NCBI GenBank assembly: GCA_950295325.1
Contig: OX485809.1
Location: forward strand, 11,284,001 to 11,348,000
Direction: 5' to 3'
From: Polytrichum commune
Taxonomy: Eukaryota > Streptophyta > Polytrichopsida > Polytrichales > Polytrichaceae
Length of the DNA: 64,000 nucleotides
Below, one piece after another: positions 25,222-61,538 of the stretch (positions are counted from its first letter, which is position 1; the number at the start of each line of letters is the position of its first letter). The notes beneath the pieces were generated by a model, which worked only from the letters and a program-made list of their open reading frames with translations, had not been told where the DNA came from and did not search any database. The translations under genes were made by a program, and so were the position numbers.

Positions 25222-25315
25222 CAGGGTTGTCTATTGTGTCGTGACGGAGGGTAATCCCGACATAATGTCGTGCCGTCACGACATGTATCCGTCACGACAT
25301 TATGCCGGATGATGT
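25222..25315 (+). repeat. hAT left terminal and subterminal inverted-repeat region
   Basis: Starts CAGGGTTGTCTAT. TCGTGACGG lies at about 25239 and CCGTCACGACA at about 25275 and 25292, so the subterminal sites are palindromic copies of one motif. hAT transposases bind such repeated subterminal motifs in known elements; binding here is inferred. Confidence 0.85.
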
Positions 25316-25452
25316 CTTTATCCTGCCGGACTTGAATTTTACCGAATTTTTTGTGTATTTACATTACCCCATTGCGGACACGTAGGAGTTACGATGTCCA
25401 CGTGTGATGACATGTCAGCAAAGTAGAGGTAAAGTGGGGAATAAAATTACTA

Positions 25453-25925
25453 GCGCCCGTCCGCCCTCCCGTCCGCCCCCGTTCCCCGTACCCTAACCCC
25501 GCTCCCTTAGCCCATTAACATGTTCCCTAACCCATTCCCTACGTTCCCTCCCGTCCGACCCCCCCGTCCGACCTTTTCCCGTCCTCCCTTTTCCCGTCCG
25601 ACCTTTTCCCGTCCTCCCTTTTCCCGTCCGACCCTCCCGTCCGACCTTCCCCCCTGTCCGACCCCCCATCCTCCTTCCCGTTCCCCTCCCCCGTTCCCCT
25701 AATCCCGTTCCCATCCATCCCGTCCTATCCAAACCTCCTAAACCCGCTCCCATCCCCCGCTCCCCACGTTCCCACACGCTCCCCGCGTTCCCCCCCGTCC
25801 GCCCCCCCCCCCCCCCGTTCCCACTTACCTTCCCGTCCTCCCCCCGCCCTCCCCCCCGTCCGACCCATCCCCCCGTCCGATCCTCCCGTCCGACCCTCCC
25901 GTCCTTCCTTCCCCCCGTCCATACC
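25453..25925 (+). repeat. C-rich subterminal tract 1 (CCCGTTCCC / CCGTCCGACC units)
   Basis: About 470 bp is almost purely C with T and scattered G. It is built of CCCGTCCGACC, CCCGTTCCC and TTTTCCCGTCC units. The part 25681-25831 is nearly identical, in the same orientation, to 61001-61150 at the other end of the element. The tract ends about 25 bp before the TATA box of the kinase-like gene. The ORFs in it are artefacts of composition. Confidence 0.85.
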
Positions 25926-25948
25926 TCATGATTGGGCTCCCCTCTCCC

Positions 25949-25956
25949 TATATAAA
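25949..25956 (+). promoter_or_regulatory. TATA box of the kinase-like gene (TATATAAA)
   Basis: CCCTATATAAAGCC lies just after the C-rich tract and about 210 bp before the first ATG (26167). Position and sequence fit a plant core promoter. Confidence 0.65.
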
Positions 25957-26166
25957 GCCGGGGGTGCTTTACTTATAATCACTTTCCTATCTTCCCACCA
26001 CTTAGGGACCCGAGACCTTGTTACGTCCCAAGGGACAGCGGCACCGCGCGGGTCTTAGTGGTTTTGGGAGGTTAGGGCAAATTGTGGGGTAACCCTCGCA
26101 ATTTTTTTTCCATATTCACGCACTCGTTTTTACACTTACTCACTCATTCACGTGATTTTTTTCTTG

Positions 26167-28083
26167 ATGAAGGGGGAGGCCATTGCTCCTTACCAAGACG
26201 AGGATTCAAGGCTGCACCGTGATTGGCTCCAAAGCAAGGCATCCGCGAATACTGGTGAAGGTACAGGAAGCGATCCCGGAAGTGGAAGTACTGCAGCACG
26301 TAATCCACGTCCAGATCCTTTTCAGTTTGATGAGGAGTTCTTTGCTGTTGGTCATTCAGGAGGCAACCAAACACGGGGAAGCCGTGGAACACGTGGGAGT
26401 CGGGGAAATAGTGGACATAGAGGGAGAATAGGAAGGGGACCAAGCTCAGGCAGTTCCACAGGTATAAATGCACCCACTTGTTCGGAGAACGTGCCACCAC
26501 AATCTCCGACACCGTGGACATCAACACCGCTTAGCCCTGCTCGAGATGTACCTCAGGGTTCGGAGCATGATGAAAGACGGGGATTGAAACGCGCAGCAGA
26601 ATCGGGAGGGATGGAGGAGGGGTCTATGGCATCAGGTTCTCAATCAAAGAAAAAGAGACATAGAGGCAAACGCGATAAACATATCGATGAGGCTCGAAAC
26701 CATTGTAGGATATTGGTGTTGGGATGGTTTAACAAGCACAACATGGTTTTTTTGGAAAAAAAATACCTCAATGATGGTACAAAGGGTTTAGAGTTGGTGA
26801 AGAACGAGTTGATTCTTCTTCTCATGGAAGGCATGGCTGGAGCTGAGTTTGAAGAAGCTAGGGGCATGAGCGATTGGGACACATGGATTGAATCTCAAGC
26901 CAGGGAAGCAATCCACAATCCAACAATGACATATGATGCTGTGCATCCCGGTGAGGGAAGTAGTGGTGGCAGGAAGTCTGAGCTGTACGAGAAGCTAGAG
27001 AATTGGAGAAGAGGCGTAATAAGCGCAAAAGGAACATCCGCCCGCACCCTTCCCGTTTTCATTGATAGACAAATGGCAGACAACATTGCCACTCAGGGCT
27101 GACATGGTGTCATATGGTTGCCTAGAGATGTGGAGATCAAAGCCTTGGATAAGGAAATCTTCCAAGGGTCCTACGGAGTGGTGCGGAGGGTCACAATTCA
27201 TGGAGCATCATTCATTCCTAGCTGGATAGAGTGGGCTGGGAAGACCATGAAGGCCACGAATAGTTTGGAGAATCGAAAGGAGCGTTCACTTGAAGCATTG
27301 GCATGTCCTGTAGATCATCCTGGGGTAATCAAGATACAGTACATCCATGTGAAAACATACGAATCCTATTCATTGTGGTGGAATGGAGGCTCTTTGAAGA
27401 CCATGAGGGTCTATGACTACCAAGTTCCGGATGTCCACGAGAGCACAATCCTTGAAGCGCCAGGGCTCGACTTTGATTCACGAAAACGCTTGGTTGTATA
27501 TCGAAAGCATCGAGCTTATTTGGCATAGGCTCTAATGTGCATTGTGGATGTAGTGCACAAGCAGGGCGTGTTGCACAATGACCTTAACCCCAACAATGTC
27601 ATGTTGCATTTTCCACAAGACCGTGAGAACACGGTTTTCATTGGTGTGTGTGATTGGGGCATGGCATCATGGGGAGATGAGGACGCCCCCTCTAACTATG
27701 GAAAAGATTCAGTGGATGAGATGAACAAGCACAAAGCACAATACAATTGTGCTGGTCCTAAATTATTCCATGTATGAGGGCAGCGTGGAACATCGACCTC
27801 TCCAATGAGGATGGCTCGGAAACATAGGCACACATATCTCTCGGAGTCCTTCTCAGTGGGTGCTTTGGCAAAGAAGATTTATCACAAGGATTCGACTTCC
27901 CCCTTGTTTCAGCTAAATCGTGATCCAAATGCCTTGAAGATGCGGTTTGAGGTAGCATTGGATGCATTAACGAAGACCAATCCAGCGGAAAGGTCAACCG
28001 TCACACACGAAGTGAACATTTTGAAGTCGCCTCCATACAACATGGTTAACCCGACAATGTGCTTCCGAGACACGGCAAAATAG
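26167..28083 (+). pseudogene. Protein-kinase-like gene with RG-rich N-terminal region (decayed)
   Basis: One reading frame runs from ATG 26167 to the stop at 28083 and is interrupted by TGA (27100), TAG (27526) and TGA (27775). The N-terminal part is Gly/Ser/Arg-rich with RG repeats (SRGTRGSRGNSGHRGR), then a basic cluster KKKRHRGKR like a nuclear signal, then an unrecognised helical region. The second part has kinase marks: a Gly-loop FQGSYGVVRRV, a Lys in WAGKTMKA, a catalytic-loop-like HNDLNPNNVML and CDWG in place of DFG. Around 27470-27530 another frame (ENAWLYIESIELIWHRL) fits a kinase helix better, suggesting two compensating indels. The HND loop keeps Asp and Asn, so an ancestral active kinase is possible. 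It lies next to the hAT left end, after the C-rich tract and a TATA box, and reads as cargo rather than a transposition gene. Confidence 0.7.
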
Positions 28084-29490: not shown

Positions 29491-30030
29491 TCATGGCTTC
29501 CGGCGAGGGTCCATTTTTGGAAGAGGATTCGGCCGAAGTAAATCAACATAGCTAATTGTTCGGTCTTTCATCCATTCCTTCAACGGTAGCCGATGAGGCG
29601 ATAATCCTTTCATCTTCTTACGAATAGGCAAAGTCTTTGAAGATTCACCTGCTACCTTGACTATTTCAATGTCGATTGAAGTCTCATCCACATCTACATC
29701 CCCGGGCTTTTCCAAAATATCCGCACACAAATCAATCAGATCATTTAGATCTCCACCCACGCATTGTGTGTTGTCCTTCTCCACCGCATAGATCTCAAAG
29801 TTGTCCGCATATCGTCGTTGTTCCTCCTCCGCCCTCATCCTCCAAGCTTGTGTAGATTGTGAGAAGGAAGTCATGACATATTCATCACGAAATCGATCTC
29901 TAGCACTTCTATCATCTCTCTCACGCTCGAGTGTTGGATTGAATGGAATATGGAAATCGTCTAAATTGTATATCTCCTCATCGCATTCTAGACCCTCAAA
30001 CATGACTTTCTCCTTTCCCATCCTATCCAT
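29491..30030 (-). CDS. Intact 179-codon acidic/charged protein, unrecognised
   Basis: Uninterrupted frame from ATG 30030 to the stop at 29491. The product is highly charged. It has an acidic N-terminal region (ECDEEIYNLDDFHIPFNP), an Arg/Asp-rich helix (ERERDDRSARDRFRDEY), a helical EEEQRRYADNF stretch, an acidic middle (DVDVDETSIDIEIV) and a basic tail (PLPKMDPRRKP). No domain is recognised. A TATA box on the same strand (30071-30079) lies about 41 nt upstream, so the leader would be very short. It sits between C-rich tract 2 and the satellite array, inside the hAT, and is the only cargo frame without a premature stop. Role unknown; a small hAT accessory protein or a captured host fragment are both possible. 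Confidence 0.55.
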   Translation of the reverse strand: MDRMGKEKVMFEGLECDEEIYNLDDFHIPFNPTLERERDDRSARDRFRDEYVMTSFSQSTQAWRMRAEEEQRRYADNFEIYAVEKDNTQCVGGDLNDLIDLCADILEKPGDVDVDETSIDIEIVKVAGESSKTLPIRKKMKGLSPHRLPLKEWMKDRTISYVDLLRPNPLPKMDPRRKP

Positions 30031-30070
30031 GATATTCTACCTTCGTTATATGTATGGGTCTCAATGATCT

Positions 30071-30079: not shown

Positions 30080-30299
30080 TTGAGCTCTAAGGACTTGATG
30101 ACGATGACCAATAATTGATGTAATCCAATATGTAGAGGATCCAATTCTCATTGGTAAGATAAAAGTCAACGCAATCGGAATAAAAATAAAGTTGGTTAGG
30201 TGAAAAATGTACACTTTTGAAAAAGTCTTCCGACATCCGCATTGCAAACCTCTTCGATACCTCTTTGAACTTTCCATATTTGATTAGTTATCCACTCAT

Positions 30300-33200
30300 T
30301 CAACAAATCATTAATTTATGCTTCAACCTTAGTGGTCCATATAGTTTCACAACAACAAGTCAATAATTTATGCTCCAACCTAAGTGGTTCATATGGTTTC
30401 ACAACCCGTGTCGCGCACCCGAATGCATTTTCATTCAACAAGTCACTAATTTGTGCTTCAACCTTAGTGGTTCATATGGTTTCATAACCCATGTCGCGCA
30501 CTCGAATGCATTTTCATTCAACAAGTCACTAATTTGTGCTTCAGCCTTAGTGGTTCATATGGTTTCACACCCCATGTTGCGCACCCGAATGCATTTTCAT
30601 TCAACAAGTCACTAATTTGTACTTCAACCTTAGTAGTTCATATGGTTTCACACCCCATGTCACGCACCCGAATGCATTTTCATTCACCAAGTCACTAATT
30701 TGTGCTTCAACCTTAGTGGTTCATATGGTTTCACAACCCATGTCGCACACCCGAAAGCATTTTCATTCAACAAGTCACTAATTTGTACTTCAGCCTTAGT
30801 AGTTCATATAATTTCACACCCCATGTCGCGCACCCGAATGCATTTTCATTCAATAAATCACTAATTTGTGTTTCAACCTTAGTGGTTCATATGGTTTCAC
30901 AACCCATGTCGTGCACCTGAATGCATTTTCATTCAACAAGGTACTAATTTGTGCTTCAACCTTAGTGGTTCATATGGTTTGACAACCCATGTCGCGCACC
31001 CGAATGCATTTTCATTCAACAAGTCACTAATTTGTACTTCAACCTTAGTGGTTCATATGATTTCACAACCCATGTCGCGCACCCGAATACATTTTCATTC
31101 AACAAGTCATTAATTTGTGCTTCAACCTTAGTGGTTCGTATGGTTTCACACCCAATGTCACGCACCCGAATGCATTTTCATTCAACAAGTCACTAATTTG
31201 TGCTTCAACCTTAGTGGTTCATATGGTTTCACACCCCATGTCGCGTACCCGAATGCATTTTCATTCAACAAGTCACTAATTTGTGCTTCAACCTTAGTGG
31301 TTCATATGGTTTCATAACCCATGTCGCGCACTCGAATGCATTTTCATTCAACAAGTCACTAATTTGTACTTCAGCCTTAGTGGTTCATATGGTTTCACAC
31401 CCCATGTTGCGCACCCGAATGCATTTTCATTCAACAAGTCACTAATTTGTGCTTCAACCTTAGTAGTTCATATGGTTTCACACCCCATGTCACGCACCCG
31501 AATGCATTTTCATTCACCAAGTCACTAATTTGTGCTTCAACCTTAGTGGTTCATATGGTTTCACAACCCATGTCGCACACCCGAAAGCATTTTCATTCAA
31601 CAAGTCACTAATTTGTACTTCAGCCTTAGTAGTTCATATAATTTCACACCCCATGTCGCGCACCCGAATGCATTTTCATTCAACAAATCACTAATTTGTG
31701 CTTCAACCTTAGTGGTTCATATGATTTCACAACCCATGTCGCGCACCCGAATACATTTTCATTCAACAAGTCATTAATTTGTGCTTCAACCTTAGTGGTT
31801 CATATGGTTTCATAACCCAATGTCGCGCACCCGAATGCATTTTCATTCAACAAGTCACTAATTTGTGCTTCAGCCTTAGTGGTTCATATGGTTTCACACC
31901 CCATGTCGCGTACCCGAATGCATTGTCATTCAACAAGTCACTAATTTGTGCTTCAACCTTAGTGGTTCATATGGTTTCATAACCCATGTCGCGCACTCGA
32001 ATGCATTTTCATTCAACAAGTCACTAATTTGTGCTTCAGCCTTAGTGGTTCATATGGTTTCACACCCCATGTTGCGCACCCGAATGCATTTTCATTCAAC
32101 AAGTCACTAATTTGTACTTCAACCTTAGTGGTTCATATGATTTCACAACCCATGTCGCGCACCCGAATACATTTTCATTCAACAAGTCATTAATTTGTGC
32201 TTCAACCTTAGTGGTTCATATGGTTTCATAACCCATGTCGCGCACTCGAATGCATTTTCATTCAACAAGTCACTAATTTGTGCTTCAGCCTTAGTGGTTC
32301 ATATGGTTTCACACCCCATGTCGCACACCCGAAAGCATTTTCATTCAACAAGTCACTAATTTGTACTTCAGCCTTAGTAGTTCATATAATTTCACACCCC
32401 ATGTCGCGCACCCGAATGCATTTTCATTCAACAAATCACTAATTTGTGTTTCAACCTTAGTGGTTCATATGGTTTCACAACCCATGTCGTGCACCTGAAT
32501 GTATTTTCATTCAACAAGGTACTAATTTGTGCTTCAACCTTAGTGGTTCATATGGTTTGACAACCCATGTCGCGCACCCGAATGCATTTTCATTCAACAA
32601 GTCACTAATTTGTACTTCAACCTTAGTGGTTCATATGATTTCACAACCCATGTCGCGCACCCGAATACATTTTCATTCAACAAGTCATTAATTTGTGCTT
32701 CAACCTTAGTGGTTCGTATGGTTTCACACCCAATGTCGCGCACCCGAATGCATTTTCATTCAACAAGCCACTAATTTGTGCTTCAACCTTAGTGGTTCAT
32801 ATGGTTTCACACCCCATGTCGCGTACCCGAATGCATTTTCATTCAACAAGTCACTAATTTGTGCTTCAACCTTAGTGGTTCAAATGGTTTCACAACCCAT
32901 GTCGCGCACCCGAATGCATTTTCATTCAACAAGTCACTAATTTGTGCTTCAACCTTAGTGGTTCATATGGTTTCACAACAACAAGTCACCAATTTGTGCT
33001 TTAACCTTAGTGGTTCATATGGTTTCACACCCCATGTCGCGCACCCGAATGCATTTTCATTCAATAAGTCACTAATTTGTGCTTGAACCTTACTGGTTCA
33101 TATGGTTTCACAATCCATGTCGCGCACCCGAATGCATTTTCATTCAACAAGTCACTAATTTGTGCTTCAACCTTAGTGGTTCAAATGGTTTCACAATCCA

Positions 33201-33505
33201 TGTCGCGCACCCGAATGCATTTTCATTCAACAAGTCACTAATTTGTGCTTCAACCTTAGTGGTTCATATGGTTTCACAACAACAAGTCACCAATTTGTGC
33301 TTTAACCTTAGTGGTTCATATGGTTTCACACCCCATGTCGCGCACCCGAATGCATTTTCATTCAACAAGTCACTAATTTGTGCTTCAACCTTAGTGGTTC
33401 AAATGGTTTCACAACCCATGTCGCGCACCCGAATGCATTTTCATTCAACAAGTCACTAATTTGTGCTTCAACCTTAGTGGTTCATATGGTTTGACAATCC
33501 ATGTA
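30300..33505 (+). repeat. 83-bp satellite array, about 38 copies, with higher-order structure
   Basis: The unit length is 83 bp: GAATGCATTTTCATTC recurs at 30421 and 30504, and so on. Each unit holds CACTAATTTGTGCTTCAACC, TTAGTGGTTCATATGGTTTC and CATGTCGCGCACCCGAATGC. Variant units recur as blocks. CACCCGAAAGCATTTTC appears near 30749, 31579 and 32328, spaced about 10 and 9 units, and the GGTTTGACAACCC variant near 30978 and 32558. This suggests block duplication by unequal exchange. Shortened units with CAACAACAAGTC occur near the left edge and near 32970 and 33270. ORFs across the array are periodic artefacts, since 83 is not a multiple of 3. Confidence 0.95.
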
Positions 33506-33793: not shown

Positions 33794-33803
33794 GAGCATC
33801 AAG
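33794..33803. repeat. 10-bp target-site duplication, left (GAGCATCAAG)
   Basis: Identical to 49401-49410 and directly abuts the MULE terminal repeat. Mutator-like elements typically make 9-11 bp duplications. Confidence 0.93.
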
Positions 33804-33857
33804 GGCAGACGATATGGTACCCCCTACGAGCTTTTGTAGGGGGCACCTGACATGTCA
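33804..33857 (+). repeat. MULE left terminal inverted repeat, with internal hairpin
   Basis: Matches the reverse complement of 49347-49400 with about five differences. It contains a small stem CCCCCTAC...GTAGGGGG conserved in both ends. Confidence 0.92.
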
Positions 33858-35040
33858 GGGTCAGCCCGGATGGAGCTGCCCGAGGTAACCGGTGCGACCG
33901 GTAAAGGTGACCGGTTCGGCAGGTGGATCGTGGATGAAGAACCTGGGGCTCCGACCCTCGTTCCGGAGGTTCTTCGAGGGGTGGGTTCAGGGTTGTCTTT
34001 TCAGGTGTACACTCAAGCTCATGTACTGTCACGTTTTTCAGGGTTGTCTGTTCTCTTGAGTGTACTGCACGAATCGAAATGATTGTGCAGATCCTTGTGG
34101 TGATGACGGCGATGAGGACAGATTTGGTGTTGTCATTGCGATTGGACTTCGCGGCGAAGGATGTGATTGAGCAGTCACACATCAACAGCTAGGGTATGAT
34201 TATGCTTGGATTTCGACTTCAATGAATGCGGTTCAGGTTCAATGAAACAACTTTGATGCTTCAGTGCACAATCATCTTGCTAATACTCTGTGATTGGGAG
34301 TCGCATCTTGGATTTGGGACACATTTTGGGCAGTTGAGAGTGTTTAGGGTTTAGGAGTGAGATGGTGTGGATCGGCTGTATGGGCATGAGGACATGGAAG
34401 AGGGAGGGGAACTGATGATGGCGAGTGGCAGGAATGGGGAGGAGAGCGTAGAGAAGCTTCAGGTTGGTGATCTGCCGGCACGCTAATTGGGACAGATTGC
34501 TGGACTTCGGAGGCGACATGACAGATAAAGGTGCGTTTCTCGAGGATCCTCGTATTCGGAGTGTGGGGAGCGATAGTGGCATTGTGGGAGTGTGTGGGTC
34601 AAGACCATGAGTATAGGTCATCTCATAAGCTTGTTAGTGGGGATTTTGGCACTGGGAAGGAAATGGATGGAGCCACTGATCAACCCTCCTTAAAAAAATC
34701 AATGATGGAAGAGAGTGCCGCGATAGGAGGTGGTAGAGTGCCAATTGGTGCACGTGGGTAGTTTCTCCATTTAGTTTAGTTGAGGGTAGCCGTTCTTTTG
34801 GGGGCTGGGCGGACAACGCTTTTAAGGGGTTTCCAAGGATAATGCATTCTGAAAGTTCAGGTCGAATTGAGGATGTCTCCTCTGCGTCCACTTTGGACCA
34901 TGTGTTCGCATCATTACGAACTCGAACCTTCGTCACTTCAACAGAAAGATGCGTCATAGAGGCGTCGTGTAATACAAGTAATGTACAACTTGGGACAAGA
35001 CTCGATAGATATACACAGGTGGGTATTTGCATAAGCTTCA
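33858..35040. other. Left part of the MULE, no supported gene
   Basis: Mixed-composition DNA with ORFs up to about 140 codons on both strands and no recognised domain. A TTTAGGGTTTAGG stretch occurs near 34345. It may hold captured gene fragments too decayed to name. Confidence 0.4.
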
Positions 35041-35870
35041 GAACAGGAAACATACAAGAATTCGGGCGGCTGGAGTTCCAAAGCGAACTTGAAATTTATC
35101 CTCGAGTCCCGTCGTGAGGATATCAGGGTGCATGAATTTTGTTTTGTATTTCCATAATCATTCTTTAATCGAGTGGGCAGAGGACTATGTTTTCCACACA
35201 TAGTTTGTTCATTCCTTGACCTAAGGAGGCATTTCAGCGACATTATCTTTCGCAGAGGTGGGTTCACTTTCTTTCACTTCATCGAAGGTTCCAAATGCTT
35301 TCTCATGGGCTCTTGCAATAGTCCAGTTAAACATCGATTCCCGAGTGCGAAATCTATGAACTCCTGTTTTTACAAGGTGTGCTTCTCTATTATATTCTCT
35401 TCTCATGAATTCCCAATCTGCCCCTCCGAATTGATCTTCTGCCATTGTGTTTGGTAGAGAAAGAAATTTCCCAGTTCGACATCGATTCCTGAGTGCAATG
35501 CCCATAAACTCAGAAGCCCCCCTTTTCACAAGGTGTGCTTCTGTATTTTCCTCTGATATATTCCAAATCCAAAATGGTTTTCTGTTGGTGTGTTTAGGTA
35601 GAGAGAGAGATGTGAATTTCAGAAAGCTTAGAGGGTTTCGTTGAGGAAGGGTTTTTAAGGAGGTTTAGTGCGTGAATGAGGTCTTTGACTTTGGAGGCTG
35701 TAGATTTGCAACAGGATGGTTGCTTGGACAAATTGCAGGTATTTCAGCAACATTATCTTTCGCAGATGTGGATTTGCTTTCTTTGACCTGATCATAGCTC
35801 CCAATTCTTTTCATGGGCTCTTGCCAGTGACGACAATGTACTGAGGGGGATTTGCATCAAATTCGTTCGC
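35041..35870 (-). pseudogene. Repeated gene-fragment-like cassettes on the minus strand (possible captured exons)
   Basis: A frame at 35529-35221 reads ALRNRCRTGKFLSLPNTMAE..., YNREAHLVKTGVHRFRTRES, ARAHEKAFGTFDEVKESE... and DNVAEMPP. The stretch AACATCGATTCCCGAGTGCG...AAGGTGTGCTTCTCT (35331-35393) recurs as GACATCGATTCCTGAGTGCA...AAGGTGTGCTTCTGT (35478-35550). ATTTCAGC(G/A)ACATTATCTTTCGCAGA recurs at 35230 and 35737 with CTTTCTTTGA/CATGGGCTCTTGC downstream. This resembles several copies of one exon picked up and duplicated, as in Pack-MULEs. The source gene is not recognised. Confidence 0.4.
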
Positions 35871-36057
35871 AGGGTAGCCTTATGCCCGATTGAGATTCTG
35901 AACTGGGAGTGATTCAAGAAGCTCCAGGTGAAGAATTTTTCAAGATACCAATTGGCAAGCTCCAATTACTCTTCTTTTGTGTACCTTTGAATGTGTTGAT
36001 TGTGAACTAGGTAATGAATGCAAGGAGCCCGGCCATAAGCTGTAGCGGCGAGGTAGG

Positions 36058-48783: not shown

Positions 48784-49346
48784 TGGAGAAGGTTGATCAC
48801 TTGCAAATCATATGTGCAGATGAGGTGTGCAGATGATAAATGAACCTGCTGATAAAGGCTGAACCCTAAACTATGTAGACATGAATATCTGCATCACTTG
48901 TATTGCTGCCACTCTATGTGTGTATGAGCAAAACCTAAACTCAACATGTTTATGTTGGTTGAGAGTTGGGTGTGATTCAGAAAGTTCAGCAAGCATCAGA
49001 ATGCTAAACATGCATGAGGAGTTAGAGGATCAAGCATCATAATGAAAGTGAATGTGGTGGGTTCTAACAAACCACCCTATCAATCCACATAGCACATCAC
49101 AGACAGCATAGACATCACAACGTAGTAACCCGAAAAGACACGAAAAAGCACACTGGCTCCATATGATCCAGATCTCAGATCCGGAAAACCCGGAAGGACA
49201 TGATCCGGAATGACATCATCTGAATGACATGAACTGCCCATCTGTATGTCAATCGTGTTGCCGTCTTTCCGTCGATCGCATGGATGAAAAGACACTGGAT
49301 GTAAACGGCTGACGTCACTGACCGGGCAGGGGCGCCGGGCAGCTTC
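48784..49346. other. Right subterminal region of the large MULE
   Basis: No gene. Presumably the promoter of the minus-strand transposase gene. Short ORFs only. Confidence 0.5.
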
Positions 49347-49400
49347 TGACCTGTCAGGGCCCCCCTACAAAAGCTCGTAGGGGGTACCATATTGTCTGCC
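49347..49400 (-). repeat. MULE right terminal inverted repeat
   Basis: Reverse complement of the left end from GGCAGACAATATGG on, with the same internal CCCCCTAC/GTAGGGGG stem. Confidence 0.92.
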
Positions 49401-49410
49401 GAGCATCAAG
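49401..49410. repeat. 10-bp target-site duplication, right (GAGCATCAAG)
   Basis: Perfect copy of 33794-33803. Confidence 0.93.
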
Positions 49411-49944
49411 GGGCTTCAAGTTCACCCTATTGCGCAAGTGCCATCAAGTAGCAATGCTAGGAGGGTACCCTTTGACTATTCGGAAAAGTGCAACTACCTT
49501 TTAGACATCACCAACTATTCCGGGGCTTTATAGCTATTGAGATTTGTTTAGGCCCTAATTTAGCCTTGGACGGGTTCAAATCCACTTTGGACGGGTTCTA
49601 AATACAACATTAACAAAATCCCCCCCAAAAAGGTACAAATATCAATTACATTATGTCATATAGAGCATGTGAATATAAGCATAATGCAATCAATCCACTA
49701 ATATCCAATCAAAATATCAATCTTGAAGTGCTAGTGAATAAGAATTAGTATATTTAAACATGTTGAACATTTAAAAAACAAACGAGATACTTATCCTTAA
49801 TAATATGACTTAACACCAACATAGATCCTATGTTTATTTTTTAGAATCTACGTTTATATTCTAATTATATCTGACATATATTATATTTAATTAAACTTCT
49901 ATTTAATTAAATAATCATCCATTAAATTAGTTAATTAATTTAAC
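49411..49944. other. hAT internal spacer
   Basis: AT-rich. No coding or repeat content recognised beyond short TTAATTAA runs. Confidence 0.5.
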
Positions 49945-50238
49945 GAACCTCCCCTCCCCTCCCTCTCCCTCGCCTCTCCCTCCTCTCTCCCTCCCCCTCC
50001 TCCCTCCCCCCCTCTCCCGCCCCCCCCCCCCGTCCGCCCCCCCCCTCCCCCTCCCCCTCCCCCCCCCTCCCCCTCCGTCCGACCACCCTACCCTACCCGT
50101 TCCCGCACCCGTTCCCGCCCCCGTTCCCCCCCCCCCCCCCCCCGTCCGACCCGTTCCCGCCCCGTCCGACCTCGTTCCCCCCCGTCCGCCCCCGTTCCCA
50201 CTCTAGATTCGTTAACCTCCTCCATGATTACTATAAAT
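49945..50238 (+). promoter_or_regulatory. C-rich tract 3 plus TATA box, upstream of the hAT transposase gene
   Basis: 49945-50212 is C-rich with CCGTCCGACC, CCCGTTCCC and CTCCCCCTCC units. It is followed by CTATAAATTAAG (TATAAAT at 50232-50238). The first transposase ATG (50469) lies 230 bp downstream, after a CAG acceptor-like site at 50454, so a leader intron is possible. Confidence 0.6.
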
Positions 50239-50468: not shown

Positions 50469-51071
50469 ATGCCACGCCGAAATGATCCATGGGATCATTG
50501 GTACGAGGATAAGGGGCTGGTTCCTGGTAAATCACAAAGGCAGGTTAAATGTAGGTATTGCTCGTTCGTCATATCTTACCGAGGAAATAGAATGTTGGCC
50601 CACCTTGGTTATAGACCTCCTTTAGGGGGTGCTTCTGATGTTTCCTCATGTAGGATGGTACCCCCGCATATTAGGGTCTTGTTTGAAAATTGCGGAGGCA
50701 ATGTGCCCTTACATGTAGGCATTGTAAATGAGGACTCTCCGATGCGAGATGATGTACCTCTAGAGCCTATTATAGCGGACTCCGTAGTTAGTGAAACAGA
50801 GCCTTTGCTTATGTCCCAATCCACTCAGCATTATGATCTTGTGATATATAGCACACCTCCTCGTGAACTACGTCAACTCAACATACCGGAGGGGTTCAAT
50901 GTGTGTAAGCCTCAATCTTCCTCACCCTTCGATTGCGTCCTAGTCCGGGTGAGGAATCATGGGCTACACTTCAAATTGCAATTCACATGTGCAAGCAAGG
51001 GAAGAAGATTGGGAGAAGTGGTGTATATAACACCCTTTTCCTTTTATTTTATTTCGCAAGCAAGCGTTTAA
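50469..51071 (+). CDS. hAT transposase, BED zinc-finger N-terminal exon
   Basis: From ATG 50469 the frame reads MPRRNDPWDHWYED then VKCRYCSFVISYRGNRMLAH. This is a BED-type finger pattern (C-x2-C...H), which binds DNA in hAT transposases. A less conserved region rich in Pro and Ser follows. The frame ends at 51071; a donor may lie at a GT before this. The catalytic part resumes at about 53702, more than 2.5 kb on, so the intervening DNA is a long intron with insertions, or the gene is broken there. Confidence 0.7.
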   Translation: MPRRNDPWDHWYEDKGLVPGKSQRQVKCRYCSFVISYRGNRMLAHLGYRPPLGGASDVSSCRMVPPHIRVLFENCGGNVPLHVGIVNEDSPMRDDVPLEPIIADSVVSETEPLLMSQSTQHYDLVIYSTPPRELRQLNIPEGFNVCKPQSSSPFDCVLVRVRNHGLHFKLQFTCASKGRRLGEVVYITPFSFYFISQASV

Positions 51072-53084
51072 GAACACTCGCTTCACAATACAATGTCCTT
51101 GGATTATATTAACTGCTCTATCTATCTATGGTCCTACTGTTTACCCACTTCGCTAGGGGGGACACTCCACCTCTTGTGGAGTGCAAGTGTGCAAGCCCGC
51201 CTAGGCCCTTACTTCCGTTGCCGCAACCTCCACCATTTCCTCGGCTGTCCCTGCATTACTCCTTCTAGACCCAGCAATGCGAACCCCGAGTCACCACCCT
51301 ACCAGCTATGTCTCTCCTCCCCGTCTGTTGCCAGCGATTGTACCTCCAGCCCTCGTAACAACTTGCTTTCACCTTCTTCCCCTTATTCGCCGATTTCGTC
51401 CACCATGACTAACTCCGGGCCCTCCTCCCAGCCGTTGCATCATTGCCCTGATGCACGCCAACCTCGCCTAGTGTGGTCCAGAGAGGGGGCCGGTGGCGCA
51501 CAAGGTTGGTACGAGGAGGTTGGCTCATACGGTGTCTAAAATATAATGCATTGACGCATTGGTACTGACGTGGTTGTTATGTTAAGCTCTGTTGTGCATT
51601 TTTGTGGGACTCAAGGATGGGCGTCCCTCAATCAAGGCTAGCTGATTGAAGCTCTAATGTTTAGAGGCGCAGTTCAGAACTCCACTCTGGACCACAGGGG
51701 GGGGCAGTGGTTCAGAGAGGGGGCCGGAGGTTTCAAAGTGGACCTCTGCACCTCTCTAGTCGCAAAGTCGTTGGATGCTCGATTACTGTATTGTCTAAAC
51801 TGCCTCAAGGTTCACAGTCACCGTTGATGCACACGCGGAGAGGATTATGAATCGGAGACAGCGACAGGGGTACTCGATCAGCAATTGACTCGCGACTCTA
51901 CAAATTCCCTAGTGGGACTGTGAGCCAATAATCTTCCCTTATTCTTCGGTTGTGCCGATCTCAGTCCGACTTGGACTTCTTGGCTGAGATGAGACCCCGC
52001 ACACGGAACCTGCTGTAGTGGAGTCGGCGTCACCTATCCAAACCCTCACTACCCCTCTCACTCGGAATCGCAAAGATTCGGCGCACGGCTTGACATCCCT
52101 TAGCCTAGCCAGTCAGAGCAGACTGTTGATCATACGGCTAAGAACAAACAACAAAAAGAATGGGCCAATGAAGTCGTGCGGTAGCACCATCCTCGGAACC
52201 TTAAGTCGGACAACAATCTATGCTTGACTTCGAATCCTCACTAGTCTGCTTGTGAGAAGATCACTATCTTCAAACCATTTCCCTACCTCGTTACACTTCT
52301 CCGGTTCACACTACATTTCCAGATCTCAACAACTAGTTGCAGTTACGGCACACCTGGCATCCCTTGTAGAAACAATTACGATATAGCTCTCTATGACACG
52401 ACGCAAATCGGGAATAAGGGAGGGGAAAAGAATTAGCTCTCCCTGGGAAGAGACTGCTCTCTTCGTCGATCGTAGCAGTACGCTCCTCGGTGAGCTTCCC
52501 AAGCTCCTTGCCCGCTTCTCGTGCCCTGTACCGCCCTTCCGTGGCCGGCCAACTGCTCTCCTCCTTAGTTTTCTCAGATTCCCATTCCTCCATCATGCCC
52601 TCTTAACCAGCAAGATGAGCTCCACGCAGGAACCACATCACCATGATGCCGGAGGACACCACCACTGCGCAACCAACGTATTCCCCACCGAGACACCAAC
52701 CTTGCCGCTCTCCCTCCATTCTCCCTTCTCCTGTTCTTGCCTTGTCAACGCAGCAGGGCTTCGCCCTCTCTCACCACTCTCCCCCTTCTACCTCTCTACC
52801 CATCTCTAAACATGCATTCATTTCCCACTGGAGCAGGGCTTCGCCCTCTCTCACTTTCTCCCCCCTCCTCTACCTTCTAACATGCATAATGAGCTCCCTA
52901 CCTCCTACCTCCCGAGACCCCTCCAACCTCTACCTTTTTTCCCGGGTTGCCCGGCATCTTTCGGGCCGCCCGAGAGAAAAAGCGGGTCAAGACCTTTTCT
53001 TTTGGCCTCTCCCCCTTCCAAACCCACTTTCCCTTTTCTTCAATTGACTTCTTCTCCCCCTAGCCTCATAGATAAATAAAACTC

Positions 53085-53085
<1 letters not shown>
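51072..53085. other. Probable intron or insertion inside the hAT transposase gene
   Basis: GC-richer DNA with many short ORFs in all frames. A GCAGGGCTTCGCCCTCTCTC block is repeated in direct order at about 52752 and 52837. Proline-rich ORFs near 52393-53047 follow the CCT/CTC-rich composition. The transposase coding between BED and catalytic parts could be hidden here, but I could not find it. Confidence 0.4.

Positions 53086-53120
<35 letters not shown>
53086..53120. repeat. (GATA)n microsatellite
   Basis: About eight and a half perfect tetranucleotide units. Confidence 0.95.
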
Positions 53121-53221
53121 GTAACTAGATAAGATAAAAGTAACCCACCATAGTTGTTACCAAGTAATCACGCTCGCGTTGTGGTATAAGTTGTGAGTCG
53201 TTATGGTTGTGGTCACCAAGT

Positions 53222-53430
53222 CATGTTTCCTCGGTTGGTTGAGGGAGGGAATTTGTACGACACTTTAAACGGTCCGGGTTCGACTCCCGTCGAGTTCGTG
53301 TGATCGTTTCATGTGTTACACATGACTTGGCTAGTGATTTCTAGGTAGGAAATTAATACCCAACCAACCGGCGCTTACCCATTCTCTTGAGCTATTCATG
53401 TAACTATCGTTCAATAAATAACGGTCATCA
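53222..53430 (+). mobile_element. tRNA-like SINE candidate
   Basis: GGGTTCGACTCCCG at about 53276 is a perfect pol III B box (GGTTCGANNCC). TGGTTGAGGGAGGG about 40 bp before it fits a degenerate A box. A tail of about 140 bp follows. There is no intact tRNA cloverleaf and no clear flanking duplication. The B-box spacing favours a tRNA-derived SINE or a tRNA relic. Confidence 0.45.
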
Positions 53431-53701
53431 TTATGACTCCTCCTTTATTCCATTGGCTTTTCTTGGTATTCCTAAGTACGCTTTTACTAGGCTCTCCATC
53501 AACGCTTATGCCTTCGCATCCCCTTTCTCCTCTAAGGTTAATTTCACTTCTAGCTCCTAATTACCTCTTAGCCCAATTTTACCAAGATATTCAACGCCTC
53601 ACCTTTCTCATCCTTTGATAATTCCATCAAGCGTGAAATCGACGTATTAGCCATGTTTTTGCGATTAAGGATTAATGTGAGTACGATTTCGGGCTCACAA
53701 T

Positions 53702-56278
53702 GTGTCAACAAAACAACTCCTTGACAGAGCATGGGCAACGGCTTTTTATGAAGCTAACATTCCTTTCAACATTGTGAGACATCCAGCATTTGTTCATGCT
53801 GTGCGTGAAACTGCCCGTCATCGAATGCCAGCCTACACACCACCATCGTACAATGCCATCCGTACGAAGTTGTTAACTGATAAAAAGGTTGACCTAGACA
53901 GGGAAGTGAAAGAGAAGCTGGGGAATTCCGTTGACAAATACGGCGTTACAATATGTTGTGATGGATGGGACAACGTGCAAAACAGACCTCTCCTAAACGT
54001 TCTTTAATGTGGCACAAAGGGAGACGTCTTCTTGGGTACCATTGATACCATGGGGAATCACAAGGATCATGTCTACGTTGCTACTCAAATTCAACTATTT
54101 GTGGAAAAGGTTGGTCGACATAATGTGGTCCAAGTTTGCACCGACAATGCCCCGGTTATGGCCTCCGCTTGCCGCGACTTGATTCAAGCAAATCCCGATC
54201 TATATGTTCAAGGATGTGCTGCGCATTGCCTAGATCTCCTCTTAGAAGATTGGGGGAAGGAGGAATGGGTGAAAAAGTTGGTAAAAAAAGGGTGCCATAT
54301 TTGTGTTTTTATAAAAAACCATCATGCTCCTCAAGCTATATTCCAGAGGTTGTCACCAAATCTCTCACTCCGCCTACCTGTAGAGACCCGTTTTGCAACA
54401 AGCTTCATCATGATAGAACGTCTTCTTCAAGTACGCAATGCTTTGGAAAGAATGGTGGTTGATGATGATTGGTCTACTCTAATGCGTGATTTGAGGAGGA
54501 GATCAGGCACCGCTTGGACGAAGGGCTTTGCAGTGCGACGCTTTATACGTTCCGATGGATTCTGGAACACGTGCAAAAATTTCTTGTATATGGTGATCCC
54601 GGTTGTTAAAGCTCTTCGTGTATTTGATGGCAAGGCGCCTGCAATGGGATTGGCTTGGAAGGTCATGCATGATTTACAAACCCATATTCGTGGATTCAGT
54701 AAACCTCCATTTCGCTTAAGCCCTGAGCTTGCTGCAAATGCTATGGTAACGTTCGAAAATAGATGGAGGTTGATGTTGAATGATCTTCATTGGGCTGGAG
54801 CGATGTTAAATCCGCTTCTACGTGGTTGGGCCCCACTCCATGAGCATGAGAATTCGAGGCCAATCCTAAATCGAGTTCTTCGCAGACTTACTCCAGATCA
54901 AGACACTTATGTCCAAATCCTCCACCAGTACCAAGATTTCCTTGAAAATCGAGGGCCTTTTGCTGATTCTACAGAACCGAACGTGCATGCCGCACCTCTC
55001 CATGAATGGTGGGATGCAATGGGAGGTGGAGCTAAGGCCCTCCAAACAATAGCGAGACGTATCCTTGCACAAGTATGTTCCGCGTCCGCATGTGAGCGCA
55101 ATTGGAGCATGTATTCATATGTTCACAACAAGAGTCGCAATCGCTTGAAGCATAGTCGTGCTGAGGACCTCGTCTACATATATACCAATAGTAGGCTCAT
55201 TCGACATCAGAGGGGCCCGAGACCTGCACAATGATACGAAGTGAATGAGGTCCATTCTGACGATGACCTTGACGAAGAAGATGACAACGAAGTTGACGTG
55301 GATCCAAATGATAGGGCCGGAAATGATGACGACAACAATGTTGATGACATTGACGATGATTTGGATGATCTCGATTCAGAGAAATCTGATTCTTATGATG
55401 AAGATGAGGGTTATAATAGTAATGATAGAAACCTTGGGGTGTTTGATTTTGATGAAGCGGATGTCCCCCATAATAACGATGGAATGCATGACGATCATGA
55501 GGGGTCTATTGGAGGTCCACCCCTTGAAACCCTCCATACTGGACAAGGTTGTCGCCTTGACCATAATGTTGCTATGGGGGCAACAGAGAATGTAGGAATT
55601 GAAGTAGATTCCTTGCAACCTCACAGCGATTCCCTTTCTTTTGGTGGAGGTGACAATGTACTACCCGCAAACGAGCCAACGCATGTTCAACAGGATCCAC
55701 TTCCAGCCAGAGTACATTCCGAATCCATGGACGCCTCCCTCATATCCAACCATCGTACCGAAGTTCAAACGTCCAATGTTGCTGAAATGCCTATAACCCG
55801 ATGTCGTGCTCTTCAAGGAATTGCATCCACCTCTACTGTGCAAGTGCATGCACAACGTCAACATCGTCCTCTCACTCGAAGTATTGCCAATACTTCTAGA
55901 TTGGGTGTTTCACTAGCAACTACTGTGGGTGCTACTTTGGTTGCTATACACAATGTTTCAAGTCGTGGTAGGGGTGGAGGGCGCCATAGAACTACGAAAG
56001 GTGTCAAACGTACTAGGAAGAGGTATCAAGGAAGATCGCTTCCGTTTATTGCTAAAGACTACAATGAAGATGAGGGTAGACCACATCTAGATGAAAATGG
56101 CATACAGGATGCAGAAGGCTCCCGGCCCACCAAGAAGATAATTATCTCACAACGTGACCGAGAGTTGCGTCTTCGGAGCGCGACTCCCCAAACAAATGAT
56201 GATTTCAGCACAGACGAGTCTGAAGAGGACCCAAGATGTGTCGAAGCAAATGATCCCACAGTACGGATTCGAACGTAA
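53702..56278 (+). pseudogene. hAT transposase, catalytic and dimerisation parts plus acidic tail (two in-frame stops)
   Basis: One frame of 859 codons is interrupted only by TAA (54005) and TGA (55232). The first part has KYGVTICCDGWDN, the first catalytic Asp region of DUF659-type hAT proteins. Then come VVQVCTDNAPVM (second Asp), QGCAAHCLDLLLEDW (Cx2H of the RNase H fold) and a helical insertion. The hAT C-terminal dimerisation motif follows: SASACERNWSMYSYVHNKSRNRL. After the TGA the frame stays open for 345 codons: a very acidic Asp-rich part, a basic RGGGRHRTTKG segment and Ser/Asp tail. This long acidic extension is unusual. It may be the true C-terminus, with the TGA an Arg codon mutated by C to T. 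The gene serves the 25222-61538 element by its position and superfamily. Confidence 0.88.
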
Positions 56279-56869: not shown

Positions 56870-57610
56870 CTAATCCGAATCTGAATCGAGGTCTATAGCC
56901 ACTGAACTAGCTGGATGAAGATGAAGTCCTCGTCGTGCTCGTGATGATTCACCAGCTTCTATGCTTCGCGCTACTCCACGGGTGAGATATGGGCGACTTC
57001 CGGGAGACAATGGAACGGCATTATGTGGTCTAGGCCCACCATTTAGCCATTTCAAAACCACATCACCCGTAACTCTATGCAAGATTGCATCAATTGCACT
57101 CAATTGCAGCCTATTCTGCTGGTACCCCTCCTTTAATTCCAATTCAGGTCTCAGATCCCGTTCCATAGGCATGTCATCTGCATCTTATTCCAAATCATGC
57201 TCCGATACTGATTCGAGACCTGCTGCATTGTACCAAGGAGGGTGTTTGCCGCTCTTTAATTGTCTGCTTGTTGTATCCCAATGCCAACCAAGAATTTGGT
57301 AAAAAAACTTTTCAAGTCATGCTCGGGGGGCTTGTTGGGATACAACTCGTCTGCAACATACAAAATTTGACGTGCACTCCGTGTCCATGCTCCATTCTTA
57401 TTTTCGTTCCATAGCTCAACCTTGGCACAATTGTATAACCAACTCCACTCAACACACTGCCCATCAAACTCTTGAAGTTCGAAAAGAAAGTCTCATGGCT
57501 TTAACACCCACTCGTTAGGCATGTAATCCCGAAGGCTGTCACCAAAAAACCTCCATCCTTCAATTTCGTCCTAGCCCGAATGGAGAAGTTTATAATGACA
57601 TGTAGAGATT
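56870..57610 (-). pseudogene. Broken gene of unknown function
   Basis: Reading the minus strand, the frame gives DEIEGWRFFGDSLRDYMPNE, then a TGA, then DFLFELQEFDGQCVEWSWLY and ARQILYVADELYPNKPPEH. At the A7 run (57301-57307) the frame must shift by one to continue as ILGWHWDTTSRQLKSGKH. It ends at 56870 after ..SSVAIDLDSDSD. TAG and TGA stops plus this homopolymer slip mark it as decayed. The tryptophan-rich, charged sequence looks protein-like, but no domain is recognised. It follows the hAT transposase tail-to-tail. Confidence 0.5.
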
Positions 57611-58968
57611 TCTCTCTTTGTAACATAATGTATGATTCCAATCTATCGTTGGAATATACACAACTTAGCCAAGTCTATACTATGTCTTCTTACACTCCTT
57701 AATCTCGGGTAATGTTACATCCTTGTACTTCTCTAAAGTCCACCCGACCGCTTTGGCCACGCATGCCTTCAAAGATATCCTTCTTGTGAAGCGAGTCCTT
57801 GCCGTCGACTCCACACTACTACATGAGTTCTCGCTTATTGATTCCATGAATTACACAAGTTTAAGTATTGATAAATATTTGTCACTTATTGTAGTTTTCT
57901 CCTCACGCTTCAACAACTATATTGGTTTAATGAACTAATGGTTATCCCTAATGGAACCAAACAAACTTCCTTTGTTCCCCTAGACTTTACTAGCTAATAG
58001 TGTAACTTTCCCATTACTTCTCGGAATGTCCTGAAATTTTATCTGTAACTAGGGAGACAAAGGAAAAAAATCTCACCAATTTGTGAGCCTATCCCATTTT
58101 CTGTCCGACAGTTATGACCATTTTAGGGTGTCAGTCTACCCAGATTTCAGAATATCATAACTTCCTCTCACAGGCTCCAAAGAACTTCAAATTTTGGAAG
58201 AAATCACAAAAACTAATAATTTATGATCCCCTGAAATTTCAAACTATTTTCATTTTCTGCCAAAACGTTATGGCATTTTTAGTCTGCAACTCTTGAAAAC
58301 ACTTCAGAATGATATATCTCTTTCTCATCTACTCGGAAGTTATGCCCCTTACAACCTAGACTACTCAAGAAATACCCAAGAAATATGAACTCAAATACTA
58401 CAACTTGAAGCCATAAAATATCTTAAAATTATTCACACCAAAACTAATTCTAACAAGAGGTCAAGCCCTCTTCAAGGCCAACTAGCCTTGGCTCTCCAAC
58501 TAAAAACTAAGCACACACATGTGCTCCAATCTTGCTTCCAACACACCCACACTTATAACACGTGGGATGCCTTGGAGCACGAAGGGAAGAGAGGATGAGT
58601 GGGGGAAGAATGAGGGATTATATAGTGAGTTTGAGGGGATGAACACCCTCAAGGCTCACGATAAGCCCTCGAGATCTCCTCCTACTTTGTAGGCTCTAAT
58701 CCTATCTCCTAAGCCTTCCTCCCTCAAATGATCAACAAGGATCCTAATTCAAACATTTAACTAACCTTGGCTTTCTACCTACCACACTTTACCAAGGTTT
58801 GTCCTTCTCCTACTTAAATCCACTCCACAAAAGCCTAATGCTTCAAACTAAGCTTTCTTCAAGCTTCACTCTTTTTATATTTTTATGAATAATCATAAAT
58901 CACCAAAACACCACTTGTAATATTTTACAAGTGTTAACAACCAATGTGGGCATCAATTTGGGCTCACA
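57611..58968. other. Spacer between two minus-strand cargo genes
   Basis: AT-rich. No gene supported. It probably includes the 3' region of the RING gene and leader of the unknown gene. Confidence 0.5.
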
Positions 58969-60636
58969 TTATTGGCCAAATTGGAGGTACAAACGAGGGT
59001 GAAAGGGTGATCTACAATGAGGACATTGACGGTTCTTGATCATATTCCCTATTAGACATTGTGGATGAAATTGGGCCCCACATGATCCAACTTGAAAGCA
59101 TCCCTCTGGGCCAAATTGACATAAGCAAATCGCACACACAGATCCATAAAAAACCATTGGATGTGGATTTGGCCATAACTTCTCACCAATAATGCGGACA
59201 GAATATTCATGCACTTGTTGCATATCCCAATGGTGATTTTCATCAGGCACTTGCTTCCAATCGATGCTCCCGCTTGGCAATGTCCAATTACACTCATCCC
59301 ACCAACTAGGGTACATCTGCTCATCTTCTGGCCACGAAGTGAGCATCATGTTCCGCATTCTCTGATTGCGGTTCCATTCTTTCTGGATGCTCTCAAACTC
59401 AGCTTCAAATTGCCGGGCCTTTGCCATAGCAAACAATGTGCTTGTCCTCATATTTTTGCGTTCCACAATCGCATCCAACAGAATTTTCTTTAGCTTGCCA
59501 TTCTGCTCCTCCAGTTGACCAAGAATATCAAGGTCAATCTTGGCTTTGTAATCAACAACAACTTCATTGACCACTTGAAGTTGTTGATGCATGTCAAACA
59601 CCTCTTTCTGCAAAGCCTCCATCTTTTATTGTATTACTTGATTCATCGTACATACTTCCAAAGTTTGTGACTTTGCAATCCTGGCTTCTTCTAAAGCTGT
59701 GTCCCTCTTTACTTGCAAAGACTAAAAATTACTGTCAGTTGTTGCCATTGGTGCACTGCTTGAACTGCCAACCCCCCCCATCGTAAGTGTTGCAACTTGA
59801 TTTTCCAAATCGAGAATCCTTGCTTTGTACTCACGAATTTTCTCAGCATGTTGCTTATACAATTCTTCCATTTTGCTCTCCAATGTGTCCCCTCCAAGTT
59901 CACCAAGGTTTACCTCGTTACCCACCTCGTTGACCAAATTGTTGACCTCAACTTCTACAATGTTTTTTTGGTTTACAGTATCCTCTATACCGTCCTCCAT
60001 ATTTACAACCACCTTCCCACTTACTGTCTCAATGTCATTGTCTACCCGACAATAATGACGTGGTTTTTTTTGTTCCCGACCATCTGGCACTGGGGTCCTA
60101 GGATCATCTACTAGTCTGGAATTCTCCCTGAACCATTCCGGAACGGGAATGTATAGAATATCTGAAACTATGCACTTAGTGAATGCAATTCCAATACCTC
60201 CAAATTTCTTCTCATTCAGAACACCCAAACTTGACCAATCCACTCTAACTCGCAACACGTGCTCTGCATACATCATACATGTCACTGACTTCGGAATTGC
60301 GCCCTTGCGCCATCTTTCCAAATTGGAGATATTTCTAAGGATTGTTAAAAATCTCCATTTTGTCTCCACATCTTAAAGTTGGTTATAATTCGCACTGATG
60401 GACCTGCAATGTATCTCGTGACAAGGTCTTGGCCACAAACGATCAAAGTGAGGGAAACCCACATATTGCATTGCAATATTCGCAGTCCACGGCTGTGGTA
60501 CCCTCTCCCAACCTGTCCTCGTTTTTTGGGTGTGGTCATCATAAATATCCCACTCCAACTCAGCGAACTTGCGTTGATATTTTTTGGCCTCCCTTGATCT
60601 TCCACTTGCCATGTCTATAGATCCTCCACTTGCCAT
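58969..60636 (-). pseudogene. Coiled-coil RING-finger (C3HC4) protein, probable E3 ubiquitin ligase, with three nonsense codons
   Basis: A single frame runs from ATG 60636 to the stop at 58969, about 556 codons. It is broken only by TAA (60373), TAG (59720) and TAA (59624). The N-terminal region (..EWDIYDDHTQKTRTGWERVP, CMMYAEHVLRVRVDWSSLG) is unrecognised. The middle is acidic and then coiled-coil (ESKMEELYKQHAEKIREYKA, ALQKEVFDMHQQLQVVNEVV). The C-terminus is a RING: CAICLCQFGPEGC...CGAQFHPQC...CPHCRSPF, with all C3HC4 ligands present. RING proteins recruit E2 enzymes to ubiquitinate substrates; the target here is unknown. All three stops are one C-to-T change from Gln codons. It is the right-most hAT cargo gene, reading inwards from the right end, with a TATA box and C-rich tract 4 upstream. 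Confidence 0.78.
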
Positions 60637-60976
60637 ATCCACCCCAATTGTGGTTTCTAAGTCTAGTGTATAACTCTAAAGTTTTAAAATATTACTTGCA
60701 CTTCATAATAGTGCTACAAAAACATCCAAGCATACACTTTAAAATAGTGTTGCCGTGGAATAAGTTCAAAAATGTTGTTAAAAATTAAAATCAAAAAACA
60801 ACCACCAAAAACACACCCACAAAACACGTGAGTATTTCCCCAATAAAGATAAAAGGGCCCCCAAATAGGGACCCCATACTCCCCCGAGTGCCCCGCGTGC
60901 CCCACGCTCTCTTTAAGAGGAGGGCCGACCGGGCTCCCACAAGGAGTAGAATGAGGTAGATAAGTGGTCCCCCCAC

Positions 60977-60984
60977 TTATATAC
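60977..60984 (-). promoter_or_regulatory. TATA box for the RING gene (TATATAAG on minus strand)
   Basis: The minus strand reads GGGGTATATAAGTGGGG directly at the edge of C-rich tract 4, about 340 bp before the ATG. Confidence 0.55.
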
Positions 60985-61262
60985 CCCGTCCTCCCTCCCA
61001 TTCCCCTCCCCCGTTCCCCTAATCCCGTTCCCATCCATCCCGTCCTATCCAAACCTCCTAAACCCGCTCCCACCCCCGCTCCCCATGTTCCCACACGCTC
61101 CCCGCGTTCCCCCCTGTCCGCCCCCCCCCCCCCCGTTCCCACTTACCTTCCCCCCCCCCCCCCCCCCGCCCGACCCTCACCCCCGTCCGACCCCCCCGTC
61201 CGACCCCACGTTCCCCCGCGTTCCCACACGTCCGCCCGCGCTCCCCACCCGTCCGACCTACA
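60985..61262 (+). repeat. C-rich subterminal tract 4
   Basis: C-rich repeat of CCCGTTCCC and CCGTCCGACC units. 61001-61150 is nearly identical, in the same orientation, to 25681-25831 of tract 1. As the hAT ends are inverted but these tracts are direct, the similarity is not part of the terminal inverted repeat. Confidence 0.85.
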
Positions 61263-61445
61263 CCCTCCTTAGTAATATTTTATTACTTTGATTTTAACAA
61301 AATGGTAGACACAATGGCAAAATGGTTTACATGCCAAGGGAAATATGCACATCCACGTTGGCATTTTTTGCCACATTGGACGCCACCTTGGCAAGAAGGT
61401 AAGTATTTTACCCACCCTACTAGGTTGACCCTAGTTTGACCCTAC

Positions 61446-61538
61446 GAGGAGCCTATTGTGTCGTGACGGAGGGGTCCGACCCGACACGACGCGTCATGAC
61501 GGCACGACCCCGTCATGACGTCGCGATAGACAACCCTG
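61446..61538 (-). repeat. hAT right terminal and subterminal region
   Basis: Ends ...ATAGACAACCCTG, the inverse of the left end. Subterminal CGTCATGACGG, CCGTCATGACG and TCGTGACGG motifs match those on the left. Confidence 0.85.

Follow-up and report, generated by a model that had tools for sequence, protein, structure and literature searches.

A multi-gene hAT transposon family in the genome of the moss Polytrichum commune

Transposons of the hAT superfamily are usually small units that encode a transposase only, and the ordinary ones (Ac/Ds, Tol1, Tol2) typically show a short terminal inverted repeat (TIR) beginning with CAGGG, together with subterminal repeats and short derivatives. Tol1 and Tol2 measure 4.4 and 4.7 kb and comprise a transposase and TIRs (PMC10175614), the TIRs of hAT elements are quoted as 5-27 bp long (PMC12506042), and the Pack-TYPE elements, Pack-hAT among them, are described as non-autonomous units that capture coding DNA (PMC8903248). 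Here we analyse a 64,000-nucleotide stretch of Polytrichum commune DNA (the window; contig OX485809.1 of assembly GCA_950295325.1, C7:11284001-11348000 in the contig numbering used below), which holds a copy of a larger hAT element. It is a single mobile unit, which measures 13.0 and 16.5 kb in two copies from which later insertions could be subtracted. The unit has four reading frames, for a hAT transposase, a protein kinase, a coiled-coil RING protein and a small open reading frame (ORF), and it is found at many places in the genome (407.8 Mb in 64 contigs). The window element is very probably a dead copy of a large, multi-gene and recently active autonomous hAT family.

The window element and its family

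As an earlier note on this stretch had proposed, the window contains a single hAT insertion with inverted ends. The 13-bp TIR CAGGGTTGTCTAT is found exactly at 25222-25234 (+) and 61526-61538 (-) and nowhere else in the window, and both borders are abutted by the octamer CGTGGAGG, a perfect (8/8) target-site duplication with one further occurrence in the window, within the largest nested insertion (the MULE described below). The hAT transposase expected inside is also there, with matches to DUF659 (7e-22) and to Dimer_Tnp_hAT (PF05699, 6e-11), and the superfamily traits of an 8-bp duplication, a short TIR and a C-terminal dimerisation domain are all present. For a BED-type zinc finger no Pfam match was obtained in the window or in the intact copy, and a C-x2-C ... 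H pattern was seen by eye only. Both ends share the subterminal motif CGTCAYGAC, whose density in five copies is 20-32 per kb over the last 200 bp at the ends and 0.2-1.2 per kb in the interior.

The size given in that note did not stand. The 36.3 kb between the borders (25222-61538) are inflated by three nested insertions, and the estimate of about 20.7 kb without the largest of them was discarded after comparison with a sister copy, c7M (C1:7121406-7135537): two more insertions are absent from the copies compared, and the cleaned size is 16,472 bp. Cleaned of its insertions, c7M measures 13.0 kb. The C-rich tracts mentioned in the note do exist at both sides; they are direct and not inverted repeats of each other (25664-25896 and 60984-61206, 91% identity).

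With the 26 outermost left-end bases as the query and at most three mismatches allowed, the genome gave 585 matches (293 + 292), and the control none. The first 16 exact left ends on C1 were followed inward for 10 kb each: ten headed a short element of 0.5-1.8 kb closed by a right end (duplication of 8/8 in nine and 6/8 in one), four led to a hAT transposase and two to neither, one of the latter with right-end sequence that lacks the terminus. At least 43 full-length transposase matches, 95-100% identical to the intact one, occur on contigs C1-C7 among the best of 294 candidates, which were the ones scored, and 31 of the 43 are free of stops. For the kinase, at least 69 long matches, some of them partial, were found on the same contigs among the scored best of 250 candidates; their identity is 83-100% (93-100% for 65 of them), 42 having no stops and 27 having some. 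In the viral contigs there was no left-end match, and none of the four stretches that fit the transposase pattern encodes a relative.

Sixteen large copies with both ends were examined (Table 1). Fourteen are flanked by a perfect 8-bp duplication, one by a 7/8 and one by a 1/8 match, and the fourteen perfect duplications all differ in their octamer and are scattered over C1, C2, C3, C6 and C7. The 15 copies other than that of the window span 13.7-18.4 kb, any insertions included. The left end differs in sequence from the right one, and every large copy examined has one of either kind. An occupied and an empty site could also be compared: the kinase gene of c7M is interrupted by a short element with the same ends, placed between two copies of TCGTGATC, whereas the window has a single TCGTGATC (27918-27925). 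These ends therefore move with an 8-bp duplication, and from the perfect duplications of the large copies we conclude that the large unit is moved in the same way by this machinery. A block of C1 with a short and a large element is repeated with the same duplications (C1:21863588-21873587 and C1:21949000-21958900), which points to segmental duplication, and a third copy of the block probably lies near C1:21.92 Mb; the large element at C1:21.95, as the segmental duplicate of that at C1:21.87, was kept outside the sixteen.

Gene content, gene orders and relatives

The copy at C1:14.04-14.06 Mb (C1:14.05 hereafter) keeps an open transposase frame of 1065 amino acids (aa; DUF659 3e-35, PF05699 3e-9) and an open kinase frame of 635 aa. 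That kinase and RING genes lie inside the element, as the earlier note had it, is borne out directly for the RING finger of the window (zf-RING_2, 4e-6). The kinase ORFs of the window (26167-28080, corresponding to the kinase match at C7:11310167-11312080) have no Pfam match, and it is the intact kinase of the C1:14.05 copy that does (Pkinase, 2.3e-6, 27.7 bits, below the gathering score of 31.7). In the model of the latter, a low-confidence N-terminal stretch is followed by a C-terminal kinase fold that places K356 on a strand and E373 on a helix, and the 50 Foldseek matches listed are all kinases, at about 1e-8. Moreover, K356, E373, D469, N474, D493, W494 and G495 are invariant in 20 aligned kinase sequences, DWG replacing the usual DFG. 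The gene product is predicted to adopt a protein-kinase fold in which the catalytic Lys and the residues of the HxD...N and D(F)G types are in place. The long relatives of the RING protein (738-909 aa) comprise a conserved N-terminal part, a coiled coil, the RING and a conserved C-terminal part; its predicted structure (mean pLDDT, the predicted local distance difference test score, of 45) was too poor to be used. The small ORF has no Pfam match.

Three gene orders were found. In A1, read through in C1:14.05 and judged by strand and spacing to be the commonest, the left end is followed by the transposase, RING (-), small ORF (-), repeats, kinase (-) and the right end. A2 (C1:16.6 and C1:21.87) is A1 with the kinase module inverted, and both are about 95% identical. 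The rarer order B (window and c7M) has the kinase first, then the small ORF, the array, the transposase and RING; C1:62.92 and C1:46.38 were placed in B by their kinase position and right-end sequence. All four genes are present, at least as remnants, in the window and in the five copies read through, across the three orders. Of the 43 transposases, 26 have a kinase within 15 kb, downstream in all 26 (chance would give about 0.5% per transposase) and on the opposite strand in 23, and RING-gene coding sequence, 95-99% identical, turned up at the predicted place and strand in all ten pairs probed. The own-genome search agrees with the earlier suggestion of a family of large gene-carrying hATs, other copies sharing the same ends and the same genes.

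The ratio of nonsynonymous to synonymous substitution rates (dN/dS) between the C1:14.05 copy and the two B copies is 0.40-0.44 for the transposase, 0.42-0.48 for the kinase and 0.42-0.45 for the in-frame part of the RING gene (0.33-0.36 among A copies). The genes in both B copies are broken, so these values show past constraint at most. Since the three genes have similar values (0.40-0.48 between subfamilies), we read them as the standing complement of the element, and "cargo", the word of the earlier note, is probably wrong for genes that recur in fixed architectures with kinase and RING constrained like the transposase.

Outside P. commune, a protein of the moss Ceratodon purpureus (63%) ranks first among the named relatives of the transposase. 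Better-scoring named matches of the kinase come from two metagenome bins, Gyalolechia (51%) and Bacilli (33%), which are probably contaminated, and then from Ceratodon (24-25%). Altogether, 79 related proteins were found for the kinase and 24 for the RING protein. RING protein P0215 and hAT protein P0115 are each on a contig of 244,620 bp, and RING protein P0217 and kinase P0145 each on one of 476,656 bp, which suggests that the members of each pair share a contig, the genes adjoining there too. Two distant kinase relatives, P0198 (KC19_VG055000, representing 126 member sequences) and P0192, belong to C. purpureus; the name of P0198 points to the V sex chromosome, a hint that the kinase family may be transposon-borne in Ceratodon as well.

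Insertions and surroundings of the window copy

The largest nested insertion was labelled a Mutator-like element (MULE) because it has 55-bp inverted arms (33804-33858 and 49346-49400), a 9-11-bp duplication (GAGCATCAAGG, 33794-33804 and 49401-49411, the border base being ambiguous) and a match to the transposase domain PF10551 near 45.5-46.0 kb (-; 1e-5, slightly below the gathering score). With one copy of the duplication it measures 15,607 bp, and its pre-insertion site is visible in c7M. It also encodes a Ulp1 peptidase (42807-43376, +) and, near its left arm, has two one-mismatch copies of the hAT-end sequence on the same strand, 51 bp apart (33988-34000 and 34039-34051). In the second insertion CAATGTGT is found at 50897-50904 and 53698-53705, the insertion plus one duplication copy (50897-53697) amounting to 2,801 bp. 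No clear duplication was seen at the borders of the third. The right ends of these last two are alike (TGTGAGCCC...), and both possibly belong to one unclassified family.

To the left of the element lie host-like genes with a SAC domain (5394-5789; Syja_N, 2e-11) and a GEX2 N-terminal domain (13581-14018; 7e-8). Just to its right there is a pair of inverted repeats, 61683-61996 and 62854-63175, 90% identical.

Table 1. Features of the window copy (window positions) and large copies with both ends (contig positions)
Feature	Position	Strand	Remarks
Target-site duplication, left copy	25214..25221		CGTGGAGG; abuts left end
Left end	25222..25310	+	13-bp TIR and subterminal CGTCAYGAC motifs
C-rich tract	25440..25930	+	upstream of kinase gene
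Protein-kinase gene	26167..28083	+	broken: two TGA and one TAG in frame; intact in other copies
Small ORF	29494..30036	-	about 180-190 aa; found in all other copies read through
Tandem array	30296..33504		mostly units of 83 bp; other copies have shorter arrays
MULE-like element	33794..49411		with both duplication copies; absent from c7M; not part of the hAT element
C-rich tract	49948..50200	+	upstream of transposase gene
hAT transposase gene	50469..56278	+	N-terminal part 50469-50904, rest 53706-56278; broken by insertion and stops
Nested insertion	50897..53705		with both copies of 8-bp duplication CAATGTGT; lacking in the copies used for comparison; does not belong to the hAT element
Coiled-coil RING protein gene	56890..60640	-	approximate limits, estimated from how long the relatives are; interrupted by the insertion of about 1.4 kb; in-frame stops
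Nested insertion	about 57537..58973		1,437 bp; lacking in the copies used for comparison; does not belong to the hAT element
Right C-rich tract	60984..61260	+	
Right end	61440..61538	-	TIR and subterminal CGTCAYGAC motifs
Target-site duplication, right copy	61539..61546		CGTGGAGG; abuts right end
Large copies	window; C1:7.12-7.14, C1:14.04-14.06, C1:16.61-16.63, C1:21.87-21.88 Mb		perfect duplication
Large copies	C3:44.38-44.39, C6:13.56-13.57, C2:2.23-2.24, C7:27.94-27.95, C1:56.88-56.90, C1:27.82-27.83 Mb		perfect duplication; all 15,702-16,266 bp
Large copy	C1:32.57-32.59 Mb		perfect duplication; 18,404 bp
Large copy	C6:19.37-19.38 Mb		perfect duplication; 16,790 bp
Large copy	C1:62.918-62.932 Mb		perfect duplication; 13,737 bp
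Large copy	C1:46.38-46.40 Mb		duplication 7/8; 14,593 bp
Large copy	C3:37995923-38011867		duplication 1/8; flanks unrelated; may be recombined

Rival readings and known systems

A composite or chance pair, in which each end would be part of a smaller element of its own and the DNA between them unrelated, is hardly credible: short elements with the same ends are indeed common, heading ten of the sixteen sampled left ends, and one large copy has unrelated flanks, but distinct left and right ends are paired one to one in each large copy examined, 14 of the 16 carry a perfect duplication and the copies read hold the same internal DNA. It is also very improbable that the copies arose mainly by segmental duplication instead of transposition, a process that would fit the duplication and neighbours shared by C1:21.87 and C1:21.95 Mb and the equal spacing at C2:35.85 and C2:35.94 Mb but is at odds with fourteen different octamers at separate places. 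An assembly join was rejected alongside these two readings, on their grounds.

The role of the further genes is a more balanced matter. We give an even chance to the proposal that an autonomous hAT lineage in mosses has turned into a multi-gene mobile element. The kinase and the RING-coiled-coil protein would then predate the present species and cooperate with the transposase, for instance through its modification or through a block on host silencing, and the modules would have been shuffled into three or more architectures without loss of the set. In our main reading of the family, the transposase probably binds the ends and the CGTCAYGAC repeats, whose subterminal clusters are its likely binding sites, and moves the whole unit by cut and paste; the short elements of 0.5-1.8 kb are probably moved in trans; and the kinase and the RING protein would be accessory genes that selection on the element has maintained, which might act on the transposase, on host silencing or on cell-cycle control. 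It is possible, if rather unlikely, that both genes are instead passengers, which an ancestral hAT picked up from its host a single time and which have been copied with it since, to no use for the element. Passengers would fit the stops in 27 of the 69 kinase copies, and three further points in their favour belong with those that weigh against our main reading: for 13 of the 43 transposases no kinase was scored within 40 kb (the best candidates alone being scored), the small ORF has a dN/dS of 0.65-1.56 against the two B copies and thus no constraint shown, and a His among the eight zinc ligands expected of a RING-H2 E3 ligase, present in the three distant relatives P0211-P0213, is Ala or Gly in this clade. 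Also to be set against the main reading are the broken state of the window copy, an apparent frame shift just before the RING in the C1:14.05 copy (the best intact one), and the kinase dN/dS of 0.46-0.76 among A copies, values of 0.4-0.5 being a mixture of constrained and neutral time. The samples were non-random as well: the 16 large copies came from the left-end list or were chosen by the usual transposase-kinase spacing, and the ten copies probed for RING all have a spacing of 7.6-8.3 kb, the region probed (residues about 377-464) being coiled coil and not RING finger. Finally, two of the sixteen have an imperfect duplication or none to speak of, and another copy, outside them, lacks the right terminus (C3:9.39-9.41). 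Passengers are in turn argued against by the kinase and RING dN/dS, which resemble that of the transposase, by the 42 of 69 kinase copies free of stops, by the retention of the four genes, at least as remnants, through three orders, and by the suggested linkage of related gene pairs (P0215/P0115 and P0217/P0145) on contigs elsewhere.

If the proposal of a multi-gene element is true, a cut-and-paste hAT can be large and bear regulatory genes, in dozens of near-identical large copies, and the family offers a tractable case for asking what kinase and RING genes do for a transposon. One caution is that kinase and RING genes of this origin may figure in annotations as gene families of mosses. No title among the matches listed in a literature search describes a large gene-carrying hAT in plants, in a coverage that leaves aside preprints and most subscription journals, so such an element may already be published. 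The term "giant", used in the earlier note, hardly suits cleaned copies of 13.0 (c7M) and 16.5 kb (window), since the review by Arkhipova considers elements above 20 kb (PMC6431247); a search of its text for the term "hAT" found none.

Like ordinary hATs, the moss element has an 8-bp duplication, a short CAGGG TIR, a DUF659/Dimer_Tnp_hAT transposase, subterminal repeats and short derivatives; unlike Tol1 and Tol2, it measures 13-16.5 kb when cleaned and has three further reading frames. With Pack-hAT it shares hAT ends around non-transposase coding DNA, but in the moss family many copies have an open transposase frame and the same further genes. The nearest system by size is ToxhAT (ToxTA) of fungi, which is about 14 kb long and has non-transposase genes aboard. 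Because its duplication is a 2-bp TA, the authors assigned it to Tc1/Mariner and regard it as non-autonomous (PMC12506042); with this reassignment it gives no precedent for a large hAT. Starships and other giant transposons are likewise gene-carrying mobile units, but Starships use a tyrosine recombinase (PMC12506042), and the moss element a hAT transposase. In its size and its gene set, the moss element falls outside the hATs that we found described.

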